The notes beneath the pieces were generated by a model. That model made no database searches. It saw only the letters and a list, made by a program, of their open reading frames with translations, and was not told the DNA's origin. Below, piece by piece: positions 2,998 through 57,233 of a DNA stretch of 64,000 nt. Source of the stretch: Pseudoclavibacter sp. Marseille-Q3772 (lineage in GTDB: Bacteria; Actinomycetota; Actinomycetes; Actinomycetales; Microbacteriaceae); assembly GCF_916618895.1 (NCBI RefSeq), contig NZ_OU745391.1, positions 1,178,001-1,242,000 of the forward strand, read 5' to 3'. Made by a program: the position numbers and the translations under genes. Position 1 is the first letter of the stretch. Each line of letters starts with the position of its first letter.

Positions 2998-5202
2998 ATG
3001 ACAGCGACACACTCGTCGAACAAATCGTGGTTGCGGGTGGTTATTCAAGCGCTCATCATCCTGGTGTGGGTCATCACCGCCGGGATCGGTGGCACCATGT
3101 TTGGGCGCGTGAGTGAAGTCTCAACGAACGACCAGACGGCGTATCTGCCGAGCAGCTCCGATGCTTATACCGTGCAGCACAAGCTGGAAGAGTTCACCGG
3201 TTCGGATGCGCTCCCGGCAATCGTCGTCTACACGAGCGATTCGGTGATCACGCCCGAGGCCGCCGGGGAAGTCTCCGACGCCTTGACGGCGCTCAATGTC
3301 GAGGGTGTAGAGCCGTCATCATCGCCGGTGATTCCGTCCGTGGACGGTAAAGCGCTTCAGGCGTTCATGCTGGTCGATAGCGATGCCGAGGTTGCGGATG
3401 CGGTGACAGCGTTGAGTGAGCGCGTCGCGAAAACCACGCCCGAGGGATTACAAGGCTTCGTGACCGGACCGGCCGGGTTCTCTGCCCAGATCGCCCAGGG
3501 GCTTGCATCCATCGACGGCCTATTGCTGGTCGTCGCGCTTGCCGCGGTGCTGATGATTTTGCTCTTCGTGTACCGCTCGGTACTACTGCCGATTGTCGTG
3601 CTGGCGACCAGTATGTTCGCACTGTGCGTGGCGCTATTGGTGGTGTGGTGGCTTGCGAAGGCCGAGCTGGTGACGCTCAGCGGCCAAACCCAGGGCATCC
3701 TATTCATCTTGGTGATTGGCGCCACTACCGACTATTCGCTGCTGTATGTCGCGCGTTTCCGGGAGGCCCTACGCAGCACCAATAGCACGGCCGATGCCAC
3801 CAAGATTGCCTGGCGCGGCTCGCTGGAACCGATCATCGCCTCTGGCGGTACCGTCATCGCCGGGCTGATGTGTCTGCTGTTGAGCGAGCTGAAGTCCAAT
3901 TCGACGCTGGGCCCGGTAACCGCGACCGGAATCGGGTTCGCGATGATTGCCGCGCTCACGCTGCTGCCGGCGGCACTGTATCTGCTTGGCCGTCGCGCAT
4001 TCTGGCCGGCCGTACCGAAGTTTGAACCCGAAGTGGTTGCTGCTGAGCACGGTATGCCGTCCAGGGGCATGTGGGCCCGGATCGCGAGTGCCGTGAAGCG
4101 TCGCCCGCGCCTGATTTGGGTGGTTGTCACCGCGGTCTTGATGATTGGTGCGTTGGGGCTGCCGCAATTGCGCGCCCACGGGGTGCCGCAAAGCGATATG
4201 GTGGCGGGCGCGAATGAAGCCCGCGACGGGCAGATTGCACTGGGCGAACACTTCCCCGCCGGTGCCGGCAGCCCGGTCATGCTGCTCATTGATGAGGGTG
4301 ATATCCGTACGGTTGTCTCCACGCTCGAGGCCAACGATGGTGTGGAGCAGGTCATAGGCGTTTCGGCTGACTCCCCCGCCGGTTCGGTGCCGGTGACTCC
4401 GGACGGTCCGCAACCACTTGACCCACGCACGCCGAACGCACCGGCGTTGACGGTGGTCGACGGTCAGGTACTGCTGCAGGCGACGCTCAGCGATGCACCG
4501 GATTCGGATGCTGCGGCATCGACCGTTCGCGATCTGATTGATGAGCTCGGCGATACCGCAAAGATCGGCGGGGTGACTGCCACATCGATTGCGACCACGG
4601 ATGCGGGTGTGCACGATAGTTTCCTCATCATCCCGGTGATTCTCGCGGTCATCATGGTGATTTTGATGCTGTTGCTGCGGGCGATCTTGGCGCCGGTACT
4701 GCTCATCCTCTCCACGGTGCTTTCCTTCGCCACAGCGCTTGGTGTTTCAGCGATCGTGTTCAATCACGTCTTCCAGTTCCCGGGTTCGGATCCGGCGGTG
4801 CCGCTGTATGCGTTCGTGTTCCTAGTGGCGCTCGGCATTGACTACAACATTTTCTTGATGACCCGAGTGCGCGAGGAAGCGCTCGAGCACGGCACTCGCA
4901 GCGGCATCTTGCGGGGGCTGGTGATCACCGGTGGGGTGATCACTTCAGCTGGCGTGGTGCTTGCCGCCACATTCGCGGCGCTTGCCGTTGTGCCCGTCGT
5001 GTTTATGCTGCAGGTGTCGTTCATCGTGGCATTCGGCGTGCTGCTCGATACCTTCGTCGTGCGTTCGCTGCTGGTGCCCGCGCTTGGTTATGACATCGGC
5101 CGGGCGATCTGGTGGCCGTCAACGCTTCGGCACAAGCAGGACACGGATGCGATCGATCTGCAGCGGATCAGCGCACCGGAGGCAATGCACTCAGACAACT
5201 GA
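2998..5202 (+). CDS. MMPL family RND-type membrane transporter
   Basis: 734 aa from ATG 2998; a TTG at 2953 would add 15 residues but overlaps a promoter-like TAAAAT. The protein shows the two-fold MMPL architecture. One N-terminal helix (VVIQALIILVWVITAGIGG) is followed by an extracytoplasmic domain and a helix bundle containing GATTDYSLLYVARFREAL. A second half repeats this with another soluble domain and a bundle containing LGIDYNIFLMTRVREEAL. The paired DY motifs are the proton-relay region of MmpL proteins. Substrate cannot be read from sequence; lipids or drugs are typical. The FUSC gene follows 77 bp downstream on the same strand. Confidence 0.88.
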   Translation: MTATHSSNKSWLRVVIQALIILVWVITAGIGGTMFGRVSEVSTNDQTAYLPSSSDAYTVQHKLEEFTGSDALPAIVVYTSDSVITPEAAGEVSDALTALNVEGVEPSSSPVIPSVDGKALQAFMLVDSDAEVADAVTALSERVAKTTPEGLQGFVTGPAGFSAQIAQGLASIDGLLLVVALAAVLMILLFVYRSVLLPIVVLATSMFALCVALLVVWWLAKAELVTLSGQTQGILFILVIGATTDYSLLYVARFREALRSTNSTADATKIAWRGSLEPIIASGGTVIAGLMCLLLSELKSNSTLGPVTATGIGFAMIAALTLLPAALYLLGRRAFWPAVPKFEPEVVAAEHGMPSRGMWARIASAVKRRPRLIWVVVTAVLMIGALGLPQLRAHGVPQSDMVAGANEARDGQIALGEHFPAGAGSPVMLLIDEGDIRTVVSTLEANDGVEQVIGVSADSPAGSVPVTPDGPQPLDPRTPNAPALTVVDGQVLLQATLSDAPDSDAAASTVRDLIDELGDTAKIGGVTATSIATTDAGVHDSFLIIPVILAVIMVILMLLLRAILAPVLLILSTVLSFATALGVSAIVFNHVFQFPGSDPAVPLYAFVFLVALGIDYNIFLMTRVREEALEHGTRSGILRGLVITGGVITSAGVVLAATFAALAVVPVVFMLQVSFIVAFGVLLDTFVVRSLLVPALGYDIGRAIWWPSTLRHKQDTDAIDLQRISAPEAMHSDN

Positions 5203-16084: not shown

Positions 16085-17290
16085 CTACGCTTTCAGCGCC
16101 TCCATCATCTTTACTCGACCGCTGCGCAGGATCGAGTTGCGGTAGATGCGGCCGGCCAACATCGTGAGCACCCAGGCAGTCGCCACGAGGATGACCAGCG
16201 AAACCAGCGGTTCCCACCACTGCGCGTCACCGAAGAAGATCCGCACCGGCATGGCCACCGGCGAGGAGATCGGGATGTAGCTCAGCCACGTCATCAGCAC
16301 CTCGTTCGACGCACCAAGGAACGGGCCGATGTACGGCACCATCATCAAGTACACAATCGGCGCGGTGGCGCTGGCCACATCCTCAGGGCGGCTGAGTGTC
16401 GCACTGACCGCCGCGTACATTGCGGCGTAGACCATGTACCCGAGCAGCGTGAAGAGGATGAACCACCCGGCGGCGGGGAGAATCTGCATGGCGAGCTCTC
16501 CCGATCCCGACGCCGCGAGCGCACCAACGAGTGTCACCGCAATCACCAGCAGCTGACCCACGGCCAGGATGGTGCCGGCGATGATCTTGCCCGCAAGGAT
16601 CGTGCTCGGCGTAACCGTCGATACGAGCAGTTCGACAATGCGTGACGCCTTCTCTTCGACGATGGACTGTGCGAGGCGCTGCACGGACATCATCAGCGCC
16701 GAAAAGAACAGGATGCCAAAGCCCATGCCGATCCACATCCGTGCCATCGGGTTATCGAGCGCGCTCGTTGGCTCGCTCACTACAGCGGAGTTCGGCGAAA
16801 CCGTGAACGCCGAGACCACCTGCTGTTTCACGTCTTCATTGCCAAGCACGGTGATCGGTGACTCTGCGGCAAGCGATGCCTGCTTGCCATCCTGGTCGTA
16901 GAGCGTGAGGGCCTGCGCCTCATCGGTCATCACGACCAGCGCGTTGACGTCGCCCGACTTGAGTGCCTCAACACCCTCATCCACCGAGCCCAACTGCTGC
17001 AGCTCGAACGGCAGCTTGTCCATACCCGGGATCGTTGATTCATCGATCGTGGTGCCGACCGTAATATCCTCGTCGTTACCGCCGATGGCGCTGAAGAACT
17101 CGCCAATGTACTTCTGGCCGAGGACGGCGGCCAGAATGAACAGCACGCTGATGATCATTCCCCAAATAAACGCTTTGGAGCGAACGGCCATCTGCAGTTC
17201 GCGTTCGGCGATGAGCTTGACGCCCTGTACCGGGGAGAGCGCGCTGGCAACCTGCGGTTGAGTTTCGTGTTGTGGTTTGGTGTGGCTCAT
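16085..17290 (-). CDS. ABC-2 type transporter permease (NatB-like)
   Basis: 401 aa. The N-terminal helix (AFIWGMIISVLFILAAVLG) comes right after the family-typical LIAERELQMAVRSK. A large extracytoplasmic domain of about 150 residues follows, then five or six helices including ARMWIGMGFGILFFSALMM. VQRLAQSIVEEKASRIVELL is the ABC-2 signature, where VEEKxxR is conserved in NatB/YhaP proteins. Its ATG overlaps the stop of the upstream ATPase gene by 4 bp. Together they form an exporter; the substrate (sodium or a small molecule) is unknown. Confidence 0.88.
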   Translation of the reverse strand: MSHTKPQHETQPQVASALSPVQGVKLIAERELQMAVRSKAFIWGMIISVLFILAAVLGQKYIGEFFSAIGGNDEDITVGTTIDESTIPGMDKLPFELQQLGSVDEGVEALKSGDVNALVVMTDEAQALTLYDQDGKQASLAAESPITVLGNEDVKQQVVSAFTVSPNSAVVSEPTSALDNPMARMWIGMGFGILFFSALMMSVQRLAQSIVEEKASRIVELLVSTVTPSTILAGKIIAGTILAVGQLLVIAVTLVGALAASGSGELAMQILPAAGWFILFTLLGYMVYAAMYAAVSATLSRPEDVASATAPIVYLMMVPYIGPFLGASNEVLMTWLSYIPISSPVAMPVRIFFGDAQWWEPLVSLVILVATAWVLTMLAGRIYRNSILRSGRVKMMEALKA

Positions 17291-43568: not shown

Positions 43569-45899
43569 ATGTCCGCCCTAGGTCAGGAGCCCGAGTTGCA
43601 CGAATCGCTCGACACGGTCGAACACGCTGAGCAAACCCCCGAGAAGGTCCAACCGTTCGAGGCGCTCGGACTGAAACCGGACGAGTACAACAAGATTCGC
43701 GAGATCCTCGGCCGCCGCCCCACTTCGGGCGAGCTGGCGATGTATTCGGTGATGTGGTCGGAGCACTGCTCGTACAAGTCGTCAAAGAAGTACCTGCGCG
43801 AGTTCGGAAAGAAGGTCACCGACGAGATGCGCGAGCACCTGCTGGTCGGTATGGGCGAGAACGCGGGTGTGATTGATCTGGGTGATGATTGGGCGGTCAC
43901 CTTCAAGGTGGAGTCGCACAACCACCCGAGCTATATCGAGCCGTTCCAGGGCGCTGCTACCGGTGTTGGCGGTATCGTTCGCGACATTATTTCGATGGGG
44001 GCGCGGCCGGTTGCGGTGATGGATGCGCTGCGGTTCGGTGATATCGACGAGGCCGACACGGCGCGTGTTGTACACGGTGTTGTCGGCGGTATTTCGTTCT
44101 ACGGCAACTGCCTCGGTCTGCCGAATATCGGTGGTGAGACCTGGTTCGACAAGACGTACCAGGTGAACCCGCTGGTGAACGCACTGGCGGTCGGTGTGCT
44201 CAAGCACGACGATCTGCACCTGGCGAATGCGCGCGGTGCCGGTAACAAGGTGGTGCTCTTTGGGGCGCGCACCGGTGGCGACGGAATCGGTGGTGCGTCG
44301 ATTCTCGCCTCGGATACCTTCGACGAGGGCGGCCCGACCAAGCGCCCGGCGGTGCAGGTGGGCGACCCGTTCGCCGAGAAGGTGCTGATCGAATGCTGTC
44401 TGGAGCTGTTCGCGAACGACGCCGTTGAGGGTATTCAGGACTTGGGCGCGGCCGGTATTTCGTGTGCGACGTCTGAGCTCGCGGCGGCCGGTGACGGCGG
44501 TATGCACATCGATCTGGATGCGGTGCTGTTGCGTGATTCGACGCTGACGGCCGAGGAGATTCTGATGTCGGAGTCGCAGGAACGCATGATGGCGATTGTG
44601 CGTCCCGACAAGCTCGAGGACTTCCTCGCGGTAACGGCGAAGTGGGAAGTTGAAACGTCGGTGCTTGGCGAGGTGAACGATTCTGGCCGGCTGACGATTG
44701 ATTGGCGCGGCGGCCGCATCGTCGATGTTGATCCGCGCACGGTCGCGGTTGATTCCCCCGTCTACGATCGCCCGGTTGCCTACCCGACGTGGCTGGATGC
44801 GCTGCAGGCCGATCGTGCCGAGGCGCTGCCTCGCCCGCAGTCCGGCGACGAGCTGCGTGAGCAGTTCTTGCGGGTGCTGCGTTCGCCGAATGCTGCTGAT
44901 CCGTCGTGGATCACCGACCAGTACGACCGCTATGTGCTGGGCAACACGGCGTTCTCGTATCCGGAGGATGCGGGGGTGATCCGCGTGGATGGGGCCACCG
45001 GTATGGGTGTTGCGGTGTCGCTGGATGCGAATGGCCGCTATGCGCAGCTTGATCCGCGCGCTGGGGCGCAGCTCGCCCTGGCTGAGGCGTACCGGAACGT
45101 TGCGACCACCGGTGCGGTGCCGATGGCGGTGTCGGATTGCCTGAACTTTGGTTCGCCCGAGAACCCCGAGGTGATGTGGCAGTTTAAGCAGGCTGTTGAG
45201 GGGCTTGCGGATGCATGCCTCGAGTTGAAGGTGCCGGTGACCGGTGGGAACGTGTCGTTCTACAACCAGACCGGTGATGTGCCGATTCATCCGTCGCCGG
45301 TGGTTGCGGTGTTGGGCCGGTTCGACAATGTTGAGCGTCGTGTTGCGGGCGCTTGGCAGGATGAGGGCGACAACCTCTATCTGCTGGGGGTGACGGCCGA
45401 GGAGTTGTCCGGTTCGATGTGGGCCGATGTGGTGCACGACCACCTTGGTGGTGTGCCGCCAAAGGTTGATTTGGCGCGCGAGGAGGCGCTTTCCGGGCTG
45501 ATGCTGGGTGCGTCGCAGCAGGGCCTGTTGAACGCGGCGCACGACCTTTCTGAGGGTGGCCTGGCGCTTGCACTTGCCGAGATGACGCGCTTTGGAATTG
45601 GTGCGCGCATTGTGCTCGATGAGCTGTGCGAGCGTGACGGTGTGGATGCGGCGACTGCGCTGTTCTCGGAGTCTACCGGGCGCGTGCTGGTTGCGGTTCC
45701 GCGCGAAGAGGATGTCAAGTTCACGTACATGTGCGAGGCCCGCGGCTTCCCGGTACTGCGCATCGGCGTGACCGACGGTGACGTGCTGGATGTGCAGGGG
45801 CAGTTTGCGGTGCCCGTTTCCGAGCTTGCTGCCGCTCGTGCCGCAACGCTGCCGCATCGCTTCGGCGCGCTGGTGCGCGACTCGGGCGAGCTTGCCTAG
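43569..45899 (+). CDS. purL: FGAM synthase large subunit PurL
   Basis: 776 aa, typical of small PurL. Landmarks: [89 protein letters not shown], and near the end [19 protein letters not shown]. It uses ATP and ammonia to convert FGAR to FGAM (step 4). The 3' 240 bp reappear, diverged, at 53050 on the far side of the CRISPR array, so the end of this gene is one edge of the accessory island. Confidence 0.96.
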
Positions 45900-45965
45900 T
45901 AGATATCGCCAGAAACTGCTCAGCTCGCTAGTAGCTATCGGCCGAGCTCGCTACCTTCGCTGAGT

Positions 45966-46090
45966 CGGAGAAATGGCGAAAATAAGGGTCACCATCGCTA
46001 TATAGCTGGTGCTCATCCTTATTTTCGCCATTTGTCCGCACGGGGGGGGTAACGAGGCATGCAAAGGCCAGCTCTCAGGGAGGATCGCTC
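45966..46090. repeat. Palindromic element A (left edge of CRISPR-Cas module)
   Basis: Perfect 17-bp arms AAATGGCGAAAATAAGG (45971-45987) and its complement (46017-46033). An inner near-palindrome is centred on GCTATATAGC. A conserved right tail TTTGTCCGCACGGGG...GTAACGAGGCATGC is shared with copy C. The stem could also terminate purL transcription. Left of it, 45900-45965 holds nothing else I can recognise. Confidence 0.85.
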
Positions 46091-46149
46091 AGACGACTCA
46101 CAACCCAGCTCGCCAAACACCGCGTGCATGAGGTACACGAACGAGCGAT

Positions 46150-46290
46150 GAAAGGAGTACCCAAGTCTGTTAAGCTTGCACCGAACAGAAATCCCAATAA
46201 ATGCTTGGCCCTCGGGTTGCAAGCAGGACTTCTCACCCCTAGGGGTAATTCCTTAATCGTTCCGGAATTGCATCCGGAACGATTTTGTTT
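46150..46290 (+). ncRNA. tracrRNA of the type II-C system
   Basis: An anti-repeat lies at 46162-46197: CAAGTCT at its 5' end and GAACAGAAATCCCAA at its 3' end are identical to the two ends of the CRISPR repeat as read on the + strand, with an unmatched middle of 14 nt against 13. Transcribed on +, it would pair with crRNA made from the - strand through 15 and 7 base pairs around an internal loop. Downstream hairpins follow: TGCTTG/CAAGCA (46202-46225), ACCCCTAGGGGT (46235-46246), then the terminator. The 5' end and promoter are not determined. Confidence 0.85.
46258..46290 (+). terminator. Intrinsic terminator of the tracrRNA
   Basis: Perfect 9-bp stem CGTTCCGGA / TCCGGAACG, 6-nt loop, followed by ATTTTGTTT. 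Confidence 0.88.
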
Positions 46291-46335
46291 GTGCGATTGT
46301 TATTGGTTTTCAATCAATCGTCTAGATTCAACACG

Positions 46336-46341
46336 TATAGT
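46336..46341 (+). promoter_or_regulatory. Probable -10 box for a leaderless cas9 transcript
   Basis: TATAGT ends 6 nt before the cas9 ATG (46348), in a short AT-rich stretch right after the tracrRNA terminator. No ribosome site lies before the ATG. This spacing places the first transcribed base at the start codon, a common actinobacterial leaderless arrangement. No good -35 box is visible. Confidence 0.5.
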
Positions 46342-46347
46342 TTGGCC

Positions 46348-49300
46348 ATGGAGCCAAATTTTAATATCCGCGTCGGCGCTGACGGAGGCACGCATTCTCT
46401 CGGCCTCGCAGCCGTAGAAGTTGACGATACTGGGATGCCAATTGACGTCCCGTATCTATTAACGGTCAAGCACGACGGCGGAAAGGACACCGCCGCTTCG
46501 AACCAGACGAATCAAGTCAGCCGAAAAGCCTCTGGCGGTCAAGCACGTCGGGCACGAAACAGGCACAATCATCGTCGGCAACAGCGTCGAGCTCTTCGAC
46601 GTGAGATGACTGAGCTTGGTCTGCCTTGGGTCGCAAATAAGCACTTGTCTACATACGAGGCTTGGAAGGCACGCATCCGGATTGCTGAAGCATTTATCCC
46701 GGACGAGTTTGAGCGCAAGCGCCTATTGGCAATCGCGCTTCAGCACATGGAACGCCACCGTGGCTGGGCAAACGCATGGGTTTCGGTCGATTCGTATTTG
46801 AATGCAGAGTCTCCGTCTGAAAAGTTTGAAGAGGCACGAAAGGCGCTGGCCGCGCGCGGAATAATTTCCGCCGCTCAAGTGTCGGAAATTCAGTTCCAAT
46901 CGCAGATCGCGGCGCTCGGCCTTACCAAGCACGAGCGAATCCGCCCGCGCACCAAGGCATCCGAATCGTCTGAGGCTGTTACTACCGCCAACCTGCTTGG
47001 CAGTCAGCACCGCGCGGATGTGGCTCGGGAGTGGATGTCAAGTGCCAAGCTGCAGGGCCTATCACACGATGAGGCGCTCCGTCTTGGTCGAGCCGCTTTC
47101 AAGCAAGAGCGGCCCTACGTGCCACAAGAAAACGTAGGTCACGAATGGATCGAAGGATACCGAGGTCAGCTTCGAGCCCCAACCGCGGCACTTGCATTCC
47201 AAGAAGCGCGCATCCGTCAGTCCGTTGCTAACTTGCGTGTTCGTGCCTCGAGTCGTGATGGGAATCCTCGCCGTCTCAGCCTCGAAGAGCAACAAATTCT
47301 GGTCGACACGCTCATGTCAATTACAGACGCTGCCAAACAACCGACTTGGCGCGAGCTTGCTGAGCAGATCAGTGTTGACCCACACCTGATTACGCACTCA
47401 GATCCTACTGCGCAGTTAACAGCTAAGGCCCCAATCGACCGTACCCGCGCGACAATTCACAAGCTCAAACGCAAGCACCCGCTCTTTGTTTGGTGGAAGG
47501 ATGCGCCCGAGGCGGATCGCAATTTCCTAGTGATGCGCCTTTGCGACCCCACGCCTGAAGTTCGAAACGCTCAGCATGCAGAGTTGGATGCGCTCTTTCT
47601 CACCTTTACCGAAGCAGAACTCGAAGAAGTTGAAAAGCTTCGCTTTGACGCCGGCCGATCAAGCCACTGCATTCACGTACTCGAACTGTTGAACGAGGAG
47701 ATGCGTACAACCGGTGACGACTACGTCACAGCACGGAATCGGCTCTTTAATAATGGTCAACACATGACTCCCGGTGGAACTGATCTCGACACTCCGCCAG
47801 ATCACCCAACTCTTCAGCGAATCGTGCCACCGTTTCGTCGGTTCTTGTATGCACTCGAACGTGAAGGAAAGCTACCGGGCCGCATCGTCATTGAGCATGT
47901 ACGCAGTTCGTTCCTGGGCCCTCAAGCCAAGCAAGATTATGTATCTGAGCAGAAGCGCAACGAGCGAGAACGTGACCTAATTCGTCAAGAGATCACACGA
48001 ACGCATGGCATCGAGAATCCCCGAAATGGGCAGATCGAAAAGTACCGTGCAGTGAGAAATCAAGATTGCATGTGCTTGTATTGCGGCGAAACAATTGGAT
48101 TCTCGACCTGTGAGCTTGATCACATTGTCCCTCGAGCCAGTGGCGGCTCTAACCGACGGGCGAATCTCGTTGCTGTTTGTCGAGCGTGTAACGCTGCGAA
48201 GGGCAAGATTCCGTTCGCCATTTTCGCCGAACAAAACAGCCGCGGTGTGACGCTGCAAGACGCGATTGCGCGAGCTCGCCAGATCAAACTTGATAAAGCG
48301 TCTAGTGCTGTCATCAGATCGTTTCGGGTCGAAATGGTGCAGCGCCTAAAACAACGTGCGGAAGATGTCCCGGTGGATGAACGCTCACTCGCCTCGACCG
48401 CCTACGCGGCCGTCGATTTGCGTGAACGTGTAAAAACGTACTACTCCAAACTCGGTATCTCAGATCCAGACCTTGCAGTGTACCGCGGTTCGATCGTTAG
48501 CGCGGCCCGCAAAGCGACCCAGATCGACAAGCTCATTGACTTACGGCCCGGCATCGAGGAAAAGTCTCGCCTCGATCGTCGCCATCACGCAATCGACGCA
48601 GCAGTTGCTGCGATGCTTACTCCTACCATTGCAAGAGTGTTGGCAGAACGCGCCGAGATGCGCACGAGCGAGATGATGACGGGTTACCCAACACGGTGGC
48701 GTGAACACCGTGGCTTCACTGAAACAACACGCGCAGAATACGACACCTGGATCGTACATATGAAACGTCTCGGGGAGTTAATTGCCAAGAAGATAGCCGC
48801 AGACGAGCTTCCAGTCATGCAGCCGCTTCGGCTCTCAACACACCATGCCCGCCTCCACAAAGAGGGCCGCAAATCGCTCGATAAGCACCCTTTAGGGGCG
48901 ACGTGGGATCACGACCTACTACGACGAGTCGCTAACCCTCAGATTCACCGAATGCTGACAGAGCTCGCAGGGGAGCAAAGCGAACTTGATGCCAGTCCTC
49001 ACCGTATGCTGAAGCTCTCGAATGGCCGCGTTTTGACGGCAGAAGACGACGTGTGGCTGTTCCCCGCCAGCAAGGCGGCCAGCAAGGCGGCATGGCTGGC
49101 TCTCCCGAACCAAAGCGCAGCGCAAATGGGCTCTTCGCTACATCACGCACGTGTATTTACCTACGAAGCTCGAGGAAAAACCAAGGTCGGTATGGTTCGC
49201 GTGTGGAATGCCGACCTCTACGACATGCCTTGCGGCATGAACGGCGACGTGCTGAACTCAGCCCTTGATCCTTGGGCACCGGTCGTGAATCGACTAGATA

Positions 49301-49710
49301 ATGCTGCTTTGCAGCAAGCCATTCGCAACAATTCTGCGCACCGAGTTGGATGGTTTTGCGCAAACGACGAGTTACATTTAGAGCCAGAAGCTTGGGTTGG
49401 CGAAAAGAACGAGTTAGGCAGGTTCATCGCAGAAACCCATGAGCGGGCCTGGAGGGTTGCATCATTCGATGATGGTGCCAATGTCTACATCCAACCAATG
49501 CGTTTAGCAGAAGAGGGCTTGCCTGAAGACACTTCGTCACTGTTCAAGAAGGTCATCGCAAACCGAGGGGCTAAGATTTCCATTTCAAAACTGTTTAGTG
49601 CTCAGGGAACCCGAATTGTCCGACGAAACGCTCTGGGCATTGAACGTCTGAGGTCAGCCGCGCTCCCTTCAGGTTGGAGTCTCGAAGATGCGAAGCTATC
49701 AGGTTCTTGA
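46348..49710 (+). CDS. cas9: CRISPR-associated endonuclease Cas9, type II-C
   Basis: 1120 aa from ATG 46348. RuvC-I is VGADGGTHSLGLAAVEVDD with catalytic Asp 12. The Arg-rich bridge helix (ARRARNRHNHRRQQRRALRR) follows near residue 65. RuvC-II is GRIVIEHVRSS with Glu 516. The HNH domain is LDHIVPRASGGSNRRANLVAVC, with His 592 and zinc-type pairs CLYC (576/579) and CRAC (611/614). RuvC-III is RRHHAIDAA with His 747 and Asp 750. All nuclease residues are present, so it should be active. Length and the GLAAVEVDD motif resemble actinobacterial II-C proteins of the Corynebacterium diphtheriae/Acidothermus kind. Codon use is visibly less GC-rich than in neighbouring pur genes. It overlaps cas1 by 23 bp. 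Confidence 0.95.
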   Translation: MEPNFNIRVGADGGTHSLGLAAVEVDDTGMPIDVPYLLTVKHDGGKDTAASNQTNQVSRKASGGQARRARNRHNHRRQQRRALRREMTELGLPWVANKHLSTYEAWKARIRIAEAFIPDEFERKRLLAIALQHMERHRGWANAWVSVDSYLNAESPSEKFEEARKALAARGIISAAQVSEIQFQSQIAALGLTKHERIRPRTKASESSEAVTTANLLGSQHRADVAREWMSSAKLQGLSHDEALRLGRAAFKQERPYVPQENVGHEWIEGYRGQLRAPTAALAFQEARIRQSVANLRVRASSRDGNPRRLSLEEQQILVDTLMSITDAAKQPTWRELAEQISVDPHLITHSDPTAQLTAKAPIDRTRATIHKLKRKHPLFVWWKDAPEADRNFLVMRLCDPTPEVRNAQHAELDALFLTFTEAELEEVEKLRFDAGRSSHCIHVLELLNEEMRTTGDDYVTARNRLFNNGQHMTPGGTDLDTPPDHPTLQRIVPPFRRFLYALEREGKLPGRIVIEHVRSSFLGPQAKQDYVSEQKRNERERDLIRQEITRTHGIENPRNGQIEKYRAVRNQDCMCLYCGETIGFSTCELDHIVPRASGGSNRRANLVAVCRACNAAKGKIPFAIFAEQNSRGVTLQDAIARARQIKLDKASSAVIRSFRVEMVQRLKQRAEDVPVDERSLASTAYAAVDLRERVKTYYSKLGISDPDLAVYRGSIVSAARKATQIDKLIDLRPGIEEKSRLDRRHHAIDAAVAAMLTPTIARVLAERAEMRTSEMMTGYPTRWREHRGFTETTRAEYDTWIVHMKRLGELIAKKIAADELPVMQPLRLSTHHARLHKEGRKSLDKHPLGATWDHDLLRRVANPQIHRMLTELAGEQSELDASPHRMLKLSNGRVLTAEDDVWLFPASKAASKAAWLALPNQSAAQMGSSLHHARVFTYEARGKTKVGMVRVWNADLYDMPCGMNGDVLNSALDPWAPVVNRLDNAALQQAIRNNSAHRVGWFCANDELHLEPEAWVGEKNELGRFIAETHERAWRVASFDDGANVYIQPMRLAEEGLPEDTSSLFKKVIANRGAKISISKLFSAQGTRIVRRNALGIERLRSAALPSGWSLEDAKLSGS

Positions 49711-50569
49711 CGTCTCCGGCTACGACGGCCAAATTGCCTCTGTACGCGGAGGGCTAAGCATTAATTCGCAGCACGTCCCACTTGAAGACGTCGCGGTACT
49801 CCTTGTTGGTTCACGGACCTTTATTTCCGGTGGAGCCCTCACTATGTTGAGCCAATATGATGTAACGCTGCTTAATCTCGATTGGCGAGGCATCACTAAC
49901 TTCTCCGGTTTTGGCTGGAGCCAGAACAGTCGTGTAGCAGCTCGACATCGAGCTCAAGCTTCGCTGTCTGAACCACGAAGGAAGTCTGCCTGGCAGCAAA
50001 TTGTCAAAGCGAAAATTACGGGCCAAGCGAACAACCTGGAGCTGTTTGGAAGTGTTCACCACAACCGTCTGCGGAATCTAGCCGCGGAGGTTCGGTCCGG
50101 AGACCCCGCAAACCTCGAGGGTCAAGCAGCACGACTTTATTGGCAAGCGTGGAGTGACGACAACACCTGGCACCGTGATACTGACGGATCCGACAAGACG
50201 AACGCAATGCTCAACTACGGCTATACCGTATTACGTGGTTTTGTTATCCAAGCAATTTGCCAAGCTGGGCTGTCTCCGACACTTGGGCTGTGGCATCGAA
50301 ATCGAGCAAACGCCTTTTGTTTGGCCGACGACTTGATAGAACCGTTTCGGCCGGCCGTCGATGCCACCGTTTACTCTCTGGGCAAGGATGCAAACATCAA
50401 TGATCCTCCAGTCAAGAAGGCACTTGTGGAGACTAGCAGAGCTCCAATCAACGCAGCAGGGACCACGCTAGCAACTTCCATCTTCAACCTGGCCATTCAT
50501 TTGGCGAAGTATGTTGAGGGCGACTCGAAGAAACTCGCTGTGCCAGTTTGGACTTTCGCGAATGGCTGA
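49688..50569 (+). CDS. cas1: CRISPR adaptation integrase Cas1
   Basis: 293 aa. Metal ligands of the Cas1 active site are in place: Glu 144 (NLEGQAARLYW), His 203 (GLWHRNRANAFCLADDLIEPFRP), and Asp 215 or Glu 218 in the same motif. The N-terminal beta domain (VAVLLVGSRTFISGGALTML) is typical of type II Cas1. It inserts new spacers together with Cas2. It overlaps both cas9 (23 bp) and cas2 (8 bp), so the three genes are one operon. Confidence 0.95.
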   Translation: MRSYQVLDVSGYDGQIASVRGGLSINSQHVPLEDVAVLLVGSRTFISGGALTMLSQYDVTLLNLDWRGITNFSGFGWSQNSRVAARHRAQASLSEPRRKSAWQQIVKAKITGQANNLELFGSVHHNRLRNLAAEVRSGDPANLEGQAARLYWQAWSDDNTWHRDTDGSDKTNAMLNYGYTVLRGFVIQAICQAGLSPTLGLWHRNRANAFCLADDLIEPFRPAVDATVYSLGKDANINDPPVKKALVETSRAPINAAGTTLATSIFNLAIHLAKYVEGDSKKLAVPVWTFANG

Positions 50570-50879
50570 TCCAGTGTGGCTGTTGTTGATGTTTGACCTA
50601 CCAACGCTGAGACCGGAGCAGCGCCGAAATGCAAATCAGTACCGCAACCTCCTTCTTGATAAGGGGTTCGAACGAGTCCAGCTTTCGGTTTATAGTCGCT
50701 ACCTCATCAACGGTACTGCAGCGATCCCCCTGATGAATTTCTTGAAGAGCAACGTCCCAGACGAAGGGATGGTTCGGATCTTACGACTCACAGACGAGCA
50801 ATGGTCGGGCGGCTGGCGTCTGGTGGGTTGTAAGTACGAACCTCCTGAAGAAGCACCAGAAACACTTATGCTCTTCTAG
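50562..50879 (+). CDS. cas2: CRISPR adaptation protein Cas2
   Basis: 105 aa from ATG 50562. A ferredoxin-like fold starts with VWLLLMFDLPTLRPEQRRN, where the Asp after the first strand is the family hallmark. FERVQLSVYSRYLING and MVRILRLTDEQW follow. It forms the integration complex with Cas1. It ends the cas operon; no csn2 or cas4 follows, which with the Cas9 size defines subtype II-C. Confidence 0.95.
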   Translation: MADPVWLLLMFDLPTLRPEQRRNANQYRNLLLDKGFERVQLSVYSRYLINGTAAIPLMNFLKSNVPDEGMVRILRLTDEQWSGGWRLVGCKYEPPEEAPETLMLF

Positions 50880-50889
50880 TTTTTCTAAT

Positions 50890-50929
50890 GGTTCCGGCGC
50901 CTCCTTCCGCGGAAGGAAGCGCCGGAACC
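50890..50929. terminator. 40-bp palindrome between cas2 and the array
   Basis: Arms GGTTCCGGCGC and TCCTTCC pair with GGAAGGA and GCGCCGGAACC around a 2-nt centre; only one unpaired base per side. It lies 10 bp behind cas2 and 8 bp before the first repeat, where cas (+) and crRNA (-) transcription should collide. No U-tract, so it is a probable bidirectional terminator/insulator rather than a classical one. Confidence 0.65.
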
Positions 50930-50937
50930 AGGTTGCT

Positions 50938-53027
50938 CAAGTCTAGTTGGGAGTAGTGAACAGAAATCCCAACGTGTCAGCATCCAGGGTGTCTTGGCCT
51001 TCAAGTCTAGTTGGGAGTAGTGAACAGAAATCCCAACCGCGAACCATCGTGGCGGCGGCTTTGCCCAAGTCTAGTTGGGAGTAGTGAACAGAAATCCCAA
51101 CGGCTCCTCCACCATCAAGCGAGAGTAGGCAAGTCTAGTTGGGAGTAGTGAACAGAAATCCCAACAGTGGGCGCGCCGCGTGCTGCGGTCACCCAAGTCT
51201 AGTTGGGAGTAGTGAACAGAAATCCCAACGGGTGGTGGCGATAGCGTCTTTACCTCCCAAGTCTAGTTGGGAGTAGTGAACAGAAATCCCAACGACGCGT
51301 TCGAACTGGTTGAGGCGGTCCCAAGTCTAGTTGGGAGTAGTGAACAGAAATCCCAACCCGTTGAAGCGGCTTGGTCTTGAGGTTGTCAAGTCTAGTTGGG
51401 AGTAGTGAACAGAAATCCCAACGTTCGCTGGTTCGCCACGTCCTGCTCGACAAGTCTAGTTGGGAGTAGTGAACAGAAATCCCAACGCGCGTCGGGCGGC
51501 GATCAGCCCTGCCGGTCAAGTCTAGTTGGGAGTAGTGAACAGAAATCCCAACAGGGTAAGGCTCGGGCGTTTGCTCGTAACAAGTCTAGTTGGGAGTAGT
51601 GAACAGAAATCCCAACATACGTTCGTCAACGGGCTTACCGGTGTCAAGTCTAGTTGGGAGTAGTGAACAGAAATCCCAACCCGTGACTCTCGCAGACACG
51701 TAGCGCCTCAAGTCTAGTTGGGAGTAGTGAACAGAAATCCCAACCCCTTGCAATCCAGATCACCGACGCATCCCAAGTCTAGTTGGGAGTAGTGAACAGA
51801 AATCCCAACCTCGAGATCAACGAGGCGTATGTAGAAGCAAGTCTAGTTGGGAGTAGTGAACAGAAATCCCAACTTTCCATCCGTGCATGGTCCAGGCGGT
51901 CCAAGTCTAGTTGGGAGTAGTGAACAGAAATCCCAACATCGTCATAATCGGCGCACACGACGATGCAAGTCTAGTTGGGAGTAGTGAACAGAAATCCCAA
52001 CCTCGAGATCAACGAGGCGTATGTAGAAGCAAGTCTAGTTGGGAGTAGTGAACAGAAATCCCAACGACGCGACCGCCTTACCCGTGCTCGAGTCAAGTCT
52101 AGTTGGGAGTAGTGAACAGAAATCCCAACATTGGCATGAGGGTGAGGCGAACCGTCGCAAGTCTAGTTGGGAGTAGTGAACAGAAATCCCAACTTCGGCA
52201 CGAACACTCGACTCGCAGTCACAAGTCTAGTTGGGAGTAGTGAACAGAAATCCCAACATTGGCATGAGGGTGAGGCGAACCGTCGCAAGTCTAGTTGGGA
52301 GTAGTGAACAGAAATCCCAACTTCGGCACGAACACTCGACTCGCAGTCACAAGTCTAGTTGGGAGTAGTGAACAGAAATCCCAACATGGGGCGCCTGCCC
52401 CGCAGGGTTCGAACAAGTCTAGTTGGGAGTAGTGAACAGAAATCCCAACTTGACGGCCCTGCTCAGTATCCAAATCGCCAAGTCTAGTTGGGAGTAGTGA
52501 ACAGAAATCCCAACGAGTCTGCCTCGAGGAGTTTCAAGGCTCCAAGTCTAGTTGGGAGTAGTGAACAGAAATCCCAACCAATTTGGGGAGCTGTATGTCG
52601 GATCCGCAAGTCTAGTTGGGAGTAGTGAACAGAAATCCCAACTTTCCATCCGTGCATGGTCCAGGCGGTCCAAGTCTAGTTGGGAGTAGTGAACAGAAAT
52701 CCCAACAAAGTGTTCTTCCACCGGTATGGGAAGGCAAGTCTAGTTGGGAGTAGTGAACAGAAATCCCAACCTCGATTCGATGTTCGGGTTCGGTCTTGCC
52801 AAGTCTAGTTGGGAGTAGTGAACAGAAATCCCAACAGGGTAAGGCTCGGGCGTTTGCTCGTAACAAGTCTAGTTGGGAGTAGTGAACAGAAATCCCAACA
52901 GTTCGTGGAGCGGATCACGGGCGGCGACAAGTTTAGTTGGGAGTAGTGAACAGAAATCCCAACAGTTCGTGGAGCGGATCACGGGCGGCGACAAGTTTAG
53001 TTGGGAGTAGTGAACAGAAATCCCAAC
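50938..53027 (-). CRISPR. Type II-C CRISPR array, 33 repeats and 32 spacers
   Basis: Repeats are 36 bp. On + they begin CAAGTCTAGTTGGGA and end ACAGAAATCCCAAC, and they carry an inner inverted repeat GTTGGGA/TCCCAAC. Spacers are 28 nt, except four of 29 and one of 30. All repeats are identical except the last two (52928 and 52992), which have T at position 6. Six spacers occur twice, leaving 26 different ones. Orientation: the tracrRNA anti-repeat on + requires crRNA from -, where the repeat reads GTTGGGATTTCTG... The - strand repeat end contains TAGACT, a possible embedded -10 box. No clear leader is visible at either end. Confidence 0.97.
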
Positions 53028-53049
53028 CACAGTGGGCCCGCGATACCTG

Positions 53050-53292
53050 TGTTTTCGGAGTCGACCGGTCGCGTGCTGGTTGCGGTTCCGCGCGAAGAAG
53101 ATGTGAAGTTCACATACATGTGCGAGGCACGCGACTTCCCGGTACTGCGCATCGGTGTTCACCAACGGTGACATGCTGGATGTGCAGGGGCAGTTTGCAG
53201 TGCCGGCTTCCGAGCTTGCTGCCGCTCGCGCGCAAACCTTGCCGCAGCGCTTCGGCAAACTGGTGCGCGATTCCGGCGAGCTCGCCGAGTAG
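53050..53292 (+). pseudogene. Diverged, frameshifted duplicate of the purL 3' end
   Basis: From TTTTCGGAGT to the stop codon it aligns with 45661-45899, the last 80 codons of purL, with many silent-type differences (roughly 85-90 percent identity by eye). One extra base near 53160 (CGGTGTTCACCAACGG against CGGCGTGACCGACGG) breaks the frame. It ends GAGCTCGCCGAGTAG, where purL ends GAGCTTGCCTAG. The homology continues downstream through palindrome B. 53028-53049, between the last repeat and this block, may be the remnant of one more spacer. Confidence 0.9.
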
Positions 53293-53323
53293 ACATCGCC
53301 GCGAGTTCGCTACCTTCCCTTAG

Positions 53324-53400
53324 CCGGAGAAACGGCGAAAATAAGGGTCACCATCGCTATATAGCTGGTGCTCATCCTTATTTTCGCCATTTGTCCGCAC
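53324..53400. repeat. Palindromic element B (right edge of CRISPR-Cas module)
   Basis: Arms 53330-53346 (AAACGGCGAAAATAAGG, one base different from A) and 53376-53392, with the same inner sequence as element A. Its left flank matches that of A (purL 3' end); its right flank after TTTGTCCGCAC differs. Confidence 0.85.
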
Positions 53401-53496: not shown

Positions 53497-53511
53497 CGAA
53501 GGGTGATTATT

Positions 53512-54765
53512 GTGGATGCAGAGCCCTCACAAAAGAGCGAAACAGCTCGCCTGCCCAATGGCTCCCTTGGGCAGGCACCGGCATTTTCCGGCGTCAGCTA
53601 TCAAACCGTCGCTTGGGAGCGCGACCCAGCAATCCCCGCTTCACGCCGCCAACAGCGGCTGCAGAGCGGCGACTATCACGCCGCGATTCCAGCGCAGATC
53701 AGCACCGCGACATTCGATATCGACGCCGAACTTCGCGTGGAAGCGGCCGAAGCCGCAGCGACGCTCCACCGGTTCGACAGTGAACTCGGCCGCTTCACCG
53801 CACCATTCAGCGCGATCCTGCTGCGAACTGAGGCAGCATCCAGCTCACAAATCGAGCAGCTTACGGCGAGCGCGAAACAGGTTTCGCTCGCCCAGGCTGG
53901 AGCAAAACATGCCTCGCCGAACGCCAGAGCAATCGCCGCGAACACCAACGCCATGCGGCGCGCACTGGACCAGCCAGACACGATCCCGTTCGACGAGCAG
54001 ATCCTTCGCATTCACCAAACGCTCATGGAAACAGACCCTGCGATGGCCTGGTGCGCCGGAAAATGGCGCACGCAACAGGTGTGGATCGGTGGCGGAGCAT
54101 CGCCCCACACCGCCACATTCGTGCCACCCACGCATGAGCGGGTAGCCGCATGCATGCACGATCTCGCGGTATTCACTCAACGGGTTGACATTGGCCCGCT
54201 CGAACAGATCGCGATTGCCCACGCCCAGTTCGAGACCATCCACCCGTTCCCCGACGGTAACGGACGGACCGGGCGCGCCCTCGCACACACCATGCTGAAG
54301 CAATTCGGCGTCGTGCAGCACACCACTGCGCCGATCTCGGCCGGCATCTTGCAACAGCAACAGCACTATTTCGAGGCGCTGACCGCCTACCGCGCCGGAG
54401 ACGTTCAACCCATCATCGAGGTTTTCGTCGCCGCCGCGTTTGCCGCTGCACATTTCGGCAGCCGCCTCGCGAACGACACGAAGGCAGTGCAGGATCGCTG
54501 GCATGCAGCGATACCGTCGCGAGCTGGCTCAGCTGCCCGGCGAGGGATCGACTTCATCACCGAAACACCAGCGTTCACCACCACAGCGCTGGCCAACCAC
54601 CTCGGAGTCACCTACGGCGCTGCGGCCAATGCTGTCGCCACCTACGAACGACATGGCGTATGCCAGCAAGCATCGAGCAACAAACGCAATCGGTATTGGC
54701 TAGCGACTGAACTCATCGAAACTCTCGACGCCTTCGCTGAGGAGCTTCGCCGCCCCAAGCCGTAA
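53512..54765 (+). CDS. Fic family protein (class II, predicted AMP transferase)
   Basis: 417 aa from GTG 53512, which has AAGGG eight bases upstream; GTG 53503 is too close to it. The active site is HPFPDGNGRTGRAL with His 244, a full match to HxFxDGNGRxxR, so AMP transfer to a hydroxyl side chain is expected. An N-terminal SSSQIEQL at about residues 110-117 (Glu 115) matches the inhibitory S/TxxxE motif of class II Fic proteins. The C-terminal 80 residues (FTTTALANHLGVTYGAAANAV) look like a winged-helix DNA-binding unit. No separate antitoxin gene is present. It lies alone between palindromes B and C, preceded by its own operator. Confidence 0.88.
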   Translation: MDAEPSQKSETARLPNGSLGQAPAFSGVSYQTVAWERDPAIPASRRQQRLQSGDYHAAIPAQISTATFDIDAELRVEAAEAAATLHRFDSELGRFTAPFSAILLRTEAASSSQIEQLTASAKQVSLAQAGAKHASPNARAIAANTNAMRRALDQPDTIPFDEQILRIHQTLMETDPAMAWCAGKWRTQQVWIGGGASPHTATFVPPTHERVAACMHDLAVFTQRVDIGPLEQIAIAHAQFETIHPFPDGNGRTGRALAHTMLKQFGVVQHTTAPISAGILQQQQHYFEALTAYRAGDVQPIIEVFVAAAFAAAHFGSRLANDTKAVQDRWHAAIPSRAGSAARRGIDFITETPAFTTTALANHLGVTYGAAANAVATYERHGVCQQASSNKRNRYWLATELIETLDAFAEELRRPKP

Positions 54766-54842: not shown

Positions 54843-54960
54843 CTCGGAGAAATGGCGAAAATAAGGGTCACCATCGCTAAATAGCAGGTGCCCACCCTTA
54901 TTTTCGCCATTTGTCCGCACGGGGGTAACGAGGCATGCGGCGACCAAGCGCCCAGGGAGG
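54843..54960. repeat. Palindromic element C (right edge of fic module)
   Basis: Arms 54850-54866 and 54896-54912, again AAATGGCGAAAATAAGG and complement, with variant centre GCTAAATAGC. Its right tail (GGGGGTAACGAGGCATGC, then AGGGAGGAGCGCC) matches that of element A. The remaining gene-free bases 54766-55049 hold nothing else recognisable. Confidence 0.85.
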
Positions 54961-55049
54961 AGCGCCAAAAAGGAGCGTTGGGCAGTACAGTCCCGCAATG
55001 AGAGCTGGCGTGACTGCGCTTTCTGGGTGACCAAACGGGGCTGCAAACG

Positions 55050-55116: not shown

Positions 55117-56170
55117 CTAGCCTTCTTCGCCTGCGCGACGACGGCGAGTCAGCGCGAGGCCGAGTCCTTCTGCGATGCCCGCCACGCCAGTGAGCTCAGC
55201 ACCGGTCTGTGCGAGTCCGCCGCCGTTTCCATCGGAGTTGTCGCCAGGTACAAGCGTCTGCGTGCCGTTACCGTCAGTTGCAGGATCTTCAACGGGGACC
55301 GTCACACGGTCAATCTCGTTGCCGTCCTTGTCATTGATGATGACGACGATCTTGTCACCAGGGTTCACGTCCTCAGGAACCGGAACAGTGATCTCACCAG
55401 TGTTCTCATCAACCGTCACACCCTCACCAGGAGTGAACTTGGTGCCCTCAGGAGCAGTGAAGTCTTCAGGAATCGAAAACGTGGAACCCTCAGGAGCCTC
55501 GACCTTTTCGTCGGTCGGCTTGCCCTCTTCGTCGACCGTGGTGAAGGTCGGGTTCGACTTGTTTCCTCACCGGGCACAACGACCTTGTCCTCGTTGGCCG
55601 GGGTGTACTCGTCTGAGTCCTTGGTTACCAGAACAGTCCATGCAGAAACGTCGTTACCACCAGAGACGAGCACTACGTTGAAGAAGTCGCCATTCTTAGC
55701 GTCTTCCGGGATGGCGAGTGCTCGGAAGTTTCCACCGTCGTTGTACTCCTGGAAGACCGGGGTGTGGAAGCCGGTGTAGCCGTTCTGGACGACACCATCC
55801 TTGTTCTCAACCCAAACGAACACGTGGTTCGGGTTGAGGAAATCCTCGCGAGTCTGGTTCTTGTCCGTGTAGTCGCCGAAGCGCAGCGAGTAACGACCTT
55901 CGGCATCGGTCTTGCCGTAGACGGTCTTGAGGATGTACTCGGGGCGGTCCTCGAGCACCTTCTTGGTTTCTGCGACCAGCTTCTCTGGGGCATTCTTGTA
56001 CTGCTCGTGCAGTTTCTGGTTTGCAGCAGCGCCGCAGCTGGGTCCGGACCTTCGGGGTCCTCAATCAGCTTGTCGCCCTTGGCAGCCATCCAGCTGGTCT
56101 CGTGGTTCGGCGGAACTTCCTGGTAGAACGCTGCCGTCAGCTGGATGTTTCCGTCAGCAGCGGCAGGAGC
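55117..56170 (-). pseudogene. Remnant of a sortase-anchored surface protein (5'-truncated, two frameshifts)
   Basis: Three successive - strand frames give one protein: (a) DGNIQLTAAFYQEVPPNH and following, about 56155-56030; (b) after a shift near 56030, NAPEKLVAETKKVLEDRPEY through DVSAWTVLVTKDSDEY; (c) after a shift near 55555, NPTFTTVDEEGKPTDEKV through VTVDENTGEITVPVPEDV. It ends in the cell-wall sorting signal LAQTGAELTGVAG, a hydrophobic stretch and RRRRAGEEG. Each shift is explained by one missing base. There is no signal peptide: the frame stops making sense where the lplA stop codon begins, so the 5' part is lost. Sequencing errors could explain the shifts but not the missing start. 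Confidence 0.8.
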
Positions 56171-56183
56171 GCAAGCCCGCGAA

Positions 56184-57233
56184 CTACGGCACGCGATACA
56201 CCCACTCCGGGTTGGTGAACTTCGTCTCGACCAGCTCACGAGCGCGCGCCAGCTCCGCATCCGTTAACGACCCCGAAACCCCGCCGTGCAGCGATGCGAA
56301 CGTGCGCGCAAACACGTCAATAATCTCGTCACGCGGCATTCCGGTTTGCGACTTCAACGGCGACACCCGTTTCTTCGCCGATTGATGCCCCTTATCGCTC
56401 ATCTTCTCGCGGCCGATGCGCAACACTTCAAGCATCCGATCCGCATCAATGTCGTACGACAGCGTCGCGTGATGCAACACCGCACCACTGCCCAGCCGCT
56501 TTTGCGCCGCGCCACCGATCTTGCCCTGCGGGGAGGCAATGTCATTCAGCGGCTCATAGCGCGCGTTGATCCCAACCTCGTGCAGCGCCTCGAGCACCCA
56601 CGCGTCCAGAAACGCATACGATTCGGCAAACGACATTCCCGCTACCAGCTCACCCGGCAGATACAGCGAATATGTCACCACTGAACCGGCTTCCATGAAC
56701 ATGGCACCGCCGCCCGAAATTCGACGTAGCACCTGCACGCCATAGCGAGCTGCCGCATCCACATCCACCTCGTTGCGCACCGACTGGAACGACCCGATAA
56801 TCGCCGCCGACTCGTTCCACTCCCAAAACCGCAATGTTGGCTTGCGTCGCCCAGCAGCTACCTCTTCGGTCAACACCTGGTCGAGCGCCACCTGCATCGC
56901 CGCCGGCAACGGCTCGTGCCGCACGATCTGCCAATCGTATTCGCGCCAATCGCGTGCGCCGAGAATCGCCCGGCGAACCACAACTGCGACCGCCTCAGGC
57001 GAAAACCCCAACAGTTGCGCGTCCTCAGGCAGTGCCGTACGTACCACCTCGGTAAGGGTTTCGTGGCTCGCGGATGCGGGCATTCCGTTTAGTGCCGCAC
57101 CCATCTGTTCGAGCGCATCATCCGGCTCTAAGAAGAAGTCACCGGCAACGCGCACATCCGCAAGCCGATCATCGCGAACGTCTAGGTCGACAATCACGAG
57201 CTTGCCGCCGGGTACCTTATATTCGCCGTGCAT
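56184..57233 (-). CDS. lplA: Lipoate-protein ligase family protein
   Basis: 349 aa. The first 85 residues (MHGEYKVPGGKLVIVDLDV) form the small accessory domain that normally stands at the C-terminus of LplA. The biotin/lipoate ligase catalytic domain follows: WEWNESAAIIGSFQSVRNEV, VLRRISGGGAMFMEAGSVVTYSL (split in the family as RRxSGGGAVxHD; here FME replaces the usual VYHD), and the lysine in GKIGGAAQKR. The C-terminal tail binds no known partner. It attaches lipoate or octanoate to dehydrogenase E2 or GcvH. Its stop codon is the right boundary of the accessory region. Confidence 0.82.
   Translation of the reverse strand: MHGEYKVPGGKLVIVDLDVRDDRLADVRVAGDFFLEPDDALEQMGAALNGMPASASHETLTEVVRTALPEDAQLLGFSPEAVAVVVRRAILGARDWREYDWQIVRHEPLPAAMQVALDQVLTEEVAAGRRKPTLRFWEWNESAAIIGSFQSVRNEVDVDAAARYGVQVLRRISGGGAMFMEAGSVVTYSLYLPGELVAGMSFAESYAFLDAWVLEALHEVGINARYEPLNDIASPQGKIGGAAQKRLGSGAVLHHATLSYDIDADRMLEVLRIGREKMSDKGHQSAKKRVSPLKSQTGMPRDEIIDVFARTFASLHGGVSGSLTDAELARARELVETKFTNPEWVYRVP

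Follow-up and report, generated by a model that had tools for sequence, protein, structure and literature searches.

The stretch of DNA considered here (referred to as the window) comprises 64,000 nucleotides of the genome of Pseudoclavibacter sp. Marseille-Q3772, a member of the Microbacteriaceae (contig NZ_OU745391.1, positions 1,178,001 to 1,242,000 of the forward strand). It contains an intact purL gene that is followed by a module of the CRISPR-Cas type (clustered regularly interspaced short palindromic repeats and associated proteins), a second, disrupted copy of the 3' end of purL, a gene for a Fic protein, and an lplA-like gene (Table 1). The preliminary description of the locus had reported that the final 240 bp of purL and the palindrome behind them recur just past the last CRISPR repeat, and this duplication is borne out by the alignment of the two blocks (left block, 45661-46041; right block, 53050-53400) and by the match of the right block to its own genome (E=3.7e-113). 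In a tblastn search of the same genome with PurL, the right copy appears as two matches in different frames (residues 695-735 and 734-776), one extra base at about position 53158 having shifted the reading frame. The coding parts of the two copies are identical at 208 of 236 compared positions (88.1%), in agreement with the earlier statement that the right copy is both diverged and frameshifted. We refer to such a remnant as a scar. Misassembly of the duplication is unlikely, because the genome is represented by one contig of 2,009,013 bases and because the copies differ. The longest exact run common to both spans 67 bp (at 45975 and 53334); deletion between the copies via this run is possible, an event that itself was not seen.

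Table 1. Features of the purL-lplA region (positions are those of the window).
Feature	Position	Strand	Basis or remark
purL, intact, 776 aa	43569..45899	+	open reading frame (ORF); NCBIfam NF002290, 990 bits
Left copy of duplicated purL 3' end, inside the intact gene	45661..45899	+	repeat alignment
REP-like (repetitive extragenic palindromic) 73-bp palindrome, left copy	45966..46038	.	repeat list, own-genome search
Flank after left palindrome; ~50 bp of it recur after the third palindrome	46039..46095	.	alignment
Putative tracrRNA (trans-activating CRISPR RNA) gene	46170..46295	+	anti-repeat 46183-46197, by repeat match
Terminator-like hairpin of putative tracrRNA gene	about 46263-46292	+	read by eye from sequence
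cas9	46351..49710	+	TIGR01865, 147.6 bits, above cut-off; PADLOC Cas9
cas1	49688..50569	+	TIGR03639, 213 bits, above cut-off
cas2	50562..50879	+	TIGR01573, 59.5 bits, above cut-off
Inverted repeat between cas2 and array	50889..50930	.	ungapped 21-nt arms with 95% complementarity
CRISPR array, 33 repeats of 36 bp, 32 spacers	50938..53027	+	
Joint, 22 nt between last CRISPR repeat and purL homology	53028..53049	+	
Right copy of purL 3' end, frameshifted scar	53050..53292	+	repeat alignment, tblastn
REP-like palindrome, right copy	53325..53397	.	repeat list, alignment
Fic protein gene (PADLOC SoFic), adjoins right scar	53503..54765	+	SoFic, 225 bits, E=3.7e-67
Third palindrome and flank common to left copy	54845..54970	.	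palindrome itself 54845-54917
lplA-like gene, conserved right border	56184..57233	-	84% aa identity in G001

Nineteen of the 28 coding sites at which the window's purL copies differ (28/236) are third codon positions (p 0.0002). Because of this bias, we regard the two ends as derived from different purL lineages; in each lineage, the end was probably shaped by selection on a functional purL gene. Their mutual identity exceeds that to the purL end of a sister genome, G001 (84.3% and 82.9%); on the assumption of equal rates, the two lineages probably parted only after their common ancestor had separated from G001. A tree of the ends, as had been proposed earlier, was built, and it left the right copy unplaced (57% support). 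An in-place tandem duplication of the purL end together with the module, followed by decay of the right copy, would yield the direct orientation and the common palindrome of the two blocks, but we consider it highly improbable, since the third-position bias is unlike that of a decaying pseudogene and since empty sites exist in relatives of other genera (see below).

Scars of this kind recur. A scan of 398 genomes of the family, one genome per species, gave matches to the PurL C-terminus in 385, of which six had more than one. True scars were present in three of them, namely the window genome (G000), G020 and G159, while the additional matches of G394 (split contig), G419 (frameshift) and G335 (weak match on another contig) were dismissed. 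Among 67 genomes of the genus of G020, 39 matched and five carry a scar on the purL contig (two each in G020 and G788, and one each in G821, G817 and G803); moreover, G810 has a scar at the start of another contig, G420 just a stub at a contig end, and the extra match of G785 is a single gene in two pieces. As a control, the end of purA gave no scar in the 50 matched genomes of the same set (5/39 versus 0/50, Fisher p 0.014, with one control gene); the extra purA matches are one gene in two pieces (G780) and two long copies on two contigs (G794). In the genus of G159, one of eight genomes has a scar, and the nine scars analyzed here come from three genera of Microbacteriaceae. Scans of the 12-16 kb behind purL with each genome's own query recovered the scars of G788, G821, G817 and G803 among 25 genomes of the two other scar-bearing genera, and found none in nine of ten other Gulosibacter genomes (the contig of the tenth, G002, being too short) or in six genomes of other genera; one weak match in G185 was left out of the counts. 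At the level of the order (396 genomes, 326 matched), no scar was found among the 292 matched genomes outside the family, in a scan whose Gulosibacter query may miss scars in distant families. Extra matches in G455, G571 and G680 (outside the family) and in G669 (within it) did not correspond to purL-adjacent scars: three are pieces of a single gene, and those of G680 are remote paralogs and a remote fragment. A literature search (titles and abstract openings, with most subscription papers outside its reach) retrieved no description of purL-end scars.

The divergence of the ends follows the pattern seen in the window: 35 of 40 differences in G159, and 89 of 133 pooled over six pairs (three of the nine scars are uncounted), fall on third codon positions, although the bias is not significant in G788, G821 and G817 taken alone. 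The DNA behind purL is variable as well. In the genus of G020, whose genomes are small (0.8-1.6 Mb, many incomplete), the purL-purA distance ranges from 1.6 to 52 kb in 19 genomes, a set that excludes G020 itself (about 182 kb apart if circular); the interval is hypervariable in this genus. Five kinds of sequence directly follow purL in seven relatives of G159 (by eye). Variable content between conserved genes, one of the marks of a core-gene-flanked hotspot, is what we find at purL.

In two genomes outside the window, comparison with an empty site indicates which side is new. In G159, the DNA past the right purL copy can be aligned with the DNA behind purL in G211 (81% over 2,090 columns), the match setting in at the fifth base past the stop codon. 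Because the same DNA directly follows purL in G211, we take the right end to be native, and the left end together with about 6.4 kb to be inserted. The two copies differ at 40 of 282 positions, and their 85.8% identity is not above that to the closest other species (up to 90.1%). Furthermore, a stretch of 59 bp that stops 7 bp short of the right copy is similar to part of a gene lying farther 3' in the recipient (score 58, against at most 24 in 100 shuffles). This gene, chorismate mutase-like by eye, is located about 0.8 kb past the native end of purL. The insert has the appearance of a relative's chromosomal fragment, attached in the absence of long homology. In G788, the module that follows the second scar is found in G787 starting right at the stop codon of purL (72% over 3.6 kb); this module with its restriction helicase and NUDIX genes is also found 2 kb 3' of purL in G124. 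An ABC-transporter module, newer and equipped with a purL end of its own, would hence have been placed ahead of an older module. In both cases the added DNA lies next to purL. Among the genomes compared, none offered an empty site for the other scars.

Comparison of the purL-lplA interval in relatives had been recommended in the preliminary description. The arrangement of purL, palindrome and fic that was to be looked for was not found in the other Gulosibacter genomes, but a CRISPR fossil came to light in G001. This genome has one purL match and no Cas9, only a weak HNH match. Its purL and lplA genes are 13.8 kb apart, the ORFs between them are transposase-, resolvase- and metal pump-like (by eye), and the cas genes of the window were not found in this interval. 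Directly 3' of purL there is a stretch similar to the upstream region and anti-repeat of the window's tracrRNA gene (score 46; maximum of 200 shuffles, 31), which past the shared CCGAACAGAAATCCCAA turns into an array, with a 28-nt spacer and then a whole repeat (L040, reverse complement 3604-3800); a second, degenerate repeat adjoins lplA (at 17110). The cas genes of G001 were probably deleted by recombination between the tracrRNA anti-repeat and an array repeat, which suggests a way in which type II systems die. Because the fossil lies at the same place, purL-tracrRNA-cas-array-lplA is probably the ancestral order for the window genome and G001, and a CRISPR system would not be new to this site.

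With the structure of the window, the divergence of the ends, their recurrence in three genera, the two empty sites and the fossil of G001 in hand, the reading that we favor (with a probability of roughly 0.62) is that the purL 3' flank in these Microbacteriaceae is an integrase-free hotspot at which homology-anchored, one-sided recombination between relatives stacks modules. Incoming DNA from a relative with a different module behind its own purL would pair with the resident purL, and a crossover within purL would leave the gene intact. The far end would join the resident purL 3' end without long homology, that is, by homology-facilitated illegitimate recombination, a described process (PMC3240628) that combines one homologous and one non-homologous junction. 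The structure of G159 fits it, whereas the homologous crossover is not locatable in the window. Alternatively, the fragment might circularize and enter by one crossover, a route to the same product that is not distinguishable from the first. Either way, the resident purL end would remain as a broken scar ahead of the older module, and repeated events would pile modules up. Simple homologous recombination, which had been put forward as the origin of the locus, cannot make the duplication: one non-homologous junction or a prior circle is needed. Natural transformation is a possible source of the DNA. The comEC family (PF03772) is present in nine of nine genomes and also in 10 of 14 controls, which allows transformation without showing it.

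In the window, the CRISPR module would then have arrived later than the SoFic region. By analogy with G159 and G788, we put the odds that the CRISPR side is the newer one at about two to one, a figure that reflects our own judgement. The earlier proposal that the module arrived on DNA with its own purL end is in keeping with the different lineages of the two ends and with these two analogues; its picture of CRISPR as a newcomer does not agree with the fossil of G001. The polarity may also be the opposite: the CRISPR system would be a vertically kept resident, and a relative's purL end, palindrome and SoFic gene would have joined the distal end of the array, homology-anchored at the lplA side. 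We regard this as the less likely course. The ancestral order suggested by G001 speaks for it, as the left half would need no transfer, while the purL-proximal position of the new material in G159 and G788 speaks against it, and so does the whole repeat of G001, which differs from the window repeat at about six of the first 20 positions (by eye), a hint that the system was exchanged. With either polarity, the scar is best read as a sign that the purL-lplA locus recombined with DNA of a diverged relative.

Several observations weigh against homology-anchored stacking, among them the positions of the scar starts. The nine starts fall into four groups (at least four positions), tighter than expected of random joints (simulation P 0.0006 to 0.03, by the range assumed); these starts were assigned by hand, two of the groups rest on decayed scars with an uncertain start, and two genomes of one genus contribute to two groups. 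The clustering hints at a site preference. It might mean that the purL 3' end is the landing site of an integrase-free cassette system with few preferred breakpoints in purL and with modules added at the front, a reading to which we give little credence; if true, it would make the locus a chromosomal cassette array in which a housekeeping gene end replaces attC and in which the scars give the order of acquisition.

It might also reflect a site-specific element, that is, circles inserted in the purL 3' end by an integrase acting in trans and since lost, with the element bringing the replacement 3' end. The e14 prophage at icd brings such a replacement end, and cis-mobilizable elements (CIMEs) accrete in tandem at gene 3' ends; both need an integrase and a fixed att core. 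Replacement 3' ends and tandem accretion would likewise occur at purL, but neither an integrase nor a fixed core was found there. The starts of G000, G020 and G788 are at most 7 bp apart, and those of G821 and G159 at most 3 bp, as such an element would have it; nevertheless, they do not define a single fixed position. No integrase-like ORF was seen in any insert (ORF lists read by eye), which agrees with the earlier remark on the window's interval. The nearest PF00589 integrase is 188 kb or more away from purL in G000 and G020, whose genomes are single contigs, and in ten other genomes the PF00589 genes are on contigs other than that of purL; by this family, no integrase-bearing related element was detected at the site in these 12 genomes, in a genome-wide search that covered PF00589 and not serine recombinases. 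The record of Microbacterium phage Min1 has purL beside phage genes and an annotated tyrosine integrase at its other end, yet a tblastn search with this integrase matched none of 177 loci except Min1 itself. Taken together with the chromosome-like sequence near the right end of the G159 insert, these findings make a site-specific element improbable in our view. In the Min1 record (L103 / L177), a 124-aa ORF and a desaturase gene stand ahead of purL, which is whole; the region resembles host DNA that surrounds a prophage next to purL, or else host genes carried by the phage.

The remaining difficulties for homology-anchored stacking concern mostly the window itself. The left purL had been predicted to be chimeric; 16 of 47 four-fold sites in its last 79 codons differ from G001, as compared with 163 of 385 in the remainder, and this comparison, which has little power, gives no boundary. 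The left and right palindromes differ by one mismatch over 73 bp (read from the alignment), a near-identity beside coding ends 12% apart that is left without explanation. No close Cas9 donor appears to be known, the best other Cas9 among 62 relatives in a large protein set being 46% identical. A tblastn search with Fic was blank in the purL-downstream stretches of other Gulosibacter genomes and thus provided no empty site for the window. In G821, G817 and G820, the contig starts inside purL and the other side is unseen. The events, the recombination route, transformation as source, and the polarity of the window are all reconstructed from present-day sequences.

Homology-anchored stacking at purL has parallels in known systems. 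Type VI secretion effector-immunity modules of Vibrio cholerae are stacked by sequential displacement, for which homology-facilitated illegitimate recombination has been proposed (PMC5361080). There, too, one conserved end anchors the new module and the older module is moved downstream with a broken remnant; unlike these arrays, in which the effector itself is displaced, the purL anchor stays whole and the modules, which include CRISPR-Cas and restriction-modification (R-M) systems, are unrelated to it. Hotspots that lack an integrase and are exchanged through recombination in the core genes beside them (PMC5635113) share with purL the lack of a mobile element, the core-gene border and the high turnover, while an event at purL can, in addition, leave an order-recording scar. 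The cas loci of Escherichia and Salmonella are proposed to have been re-inserted at the same chromosomal place through flanking sequences (PMC2886076), and here as there cas genes would have been lost and regained at a fixed place; that case concerns other CRISPR types, recombination is proposed at the arrays, and a duplicated housekeeping gene end is not part of the account as far as the portion cited goes. Movement by housekeeping-gene homology had been called unusual in the preliminary description, a judgement that is difficult to maintain, since exchange of gene clusters and cas loci through their flanks has already been proposed (PMC5635113, PMC2886076). Finally, R-M systems can be inserted with a long target duplication, on the order of 100 bp (reviewed in PMC3874152), and such defence genes likewise lie between long direct repeats of the target; the purL repeats, in contrast, are diverged coding ends of different lineages and not copies made at insertion, as their synonymous divergence, clearest in G000 and G159, indicates.

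The purL scars bear on the question of how defence systems spread between chromosomes when no mobile element carries them: each scar would be the footprint of one arrival, with its donor distance and its order. Scars would thus allow gains and losses of CRISPR, R-M and other modules to be counted at one site across a bacterial family, and recombination between relatives to be tested against phages or plasmids as the carrier.

The cargo of the purL-bracketed modules appears to include several defence systems and is partly non-defence. In the window it consists of the CRISPR-Cas system and, behind the scar, the Fic protein (PADLOC, NCBIfam). G821 has a MutH-domain restriction enzyme and a C5 methyltransferase (Type II R-M) between the two purL ends; G788 a Type IV restriction-like helicase with NUDIX, and an ABC transporter; and G803 two unknowns between purL and the scar, with Type II R-M genes beyond. 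In G020, a nucleotidyltransferase (PF12281) is accompanied by a partner that is AbiE-like by eye (no PADLOC, Pfam or NCBIfam match); a 577-aa protein with a weak PDC-S01 match is also present, and Type I restriction genes follow past the last scar. The cargo of G159 comprises a surface-repeat-like protein, a response regulator and a kinase-like protein (by eye), and that of G817 is a single 134-aa ORF.

Type II-C systems are defined by cas9, cas1 and cas2 without csn2 or cas4, a tracrRNA with an anti-repeat, and an array. The window system belongs to type II-C: it possesses cas9, cas1, cas2, an anti-repeat and an array, and the ORF list contains no additional cas-like ORF between purL and the right scar; the cas loci of Escherichia and Salmonella compared above we take to be type I. 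The G+C content of the cas genes (55% and 53%) is below that of purL (64%) and of the window (62%), which speaks for the reading favored above. Among 11 genomes of the genus Gulosibacter searched, full-length Cas9 is present only in the window genome, G006 and G010; the proteins of the latter two are 46% and 42% identical to that of the window and are encoded 8.3 and about 22 kb 3' of purL. Carriage of the module by plasmids or by phages was considered and rejected. Cas9 tblastn gave three weak partial matches in plasmids, in Novosphingobium and Cupriavidus. The purL end matches five records of a plasmid collection and three phage records, two of which are the same phage Min1 with whole purL and the third MT835650 (an unverified record). 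The last two array repeats carry a C-to-T variant, and a comparison of the array with phage sequences gave no match. Six spacers are present twice (positions 10/30, 14/17, 15/27, 19/21, 20/22 and 31/32), which suggests internal duplication of the array.

The REP-like palindrome is a dispersed repeat with 20 matches at 11 or more distinct places in its own genome, a lower bound as 40 of 53 candidates were scored. The roughly 50-bp flank is common to the left palindrome and to the third one beyond fic, and is found in none of the other copies inspected; the third palindrome with its flank is possibly an older scar without purL coding sequence. The Fic protein scores 66.4 bits against the NCBIfam SoFic model, far below the cut-off of 550 despite its strong PADLOC match. 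Between fic and lplA, positions 55117-55958 hold the remains of a surface protein in two frames with a LAQTG sorting-like end (by eye).
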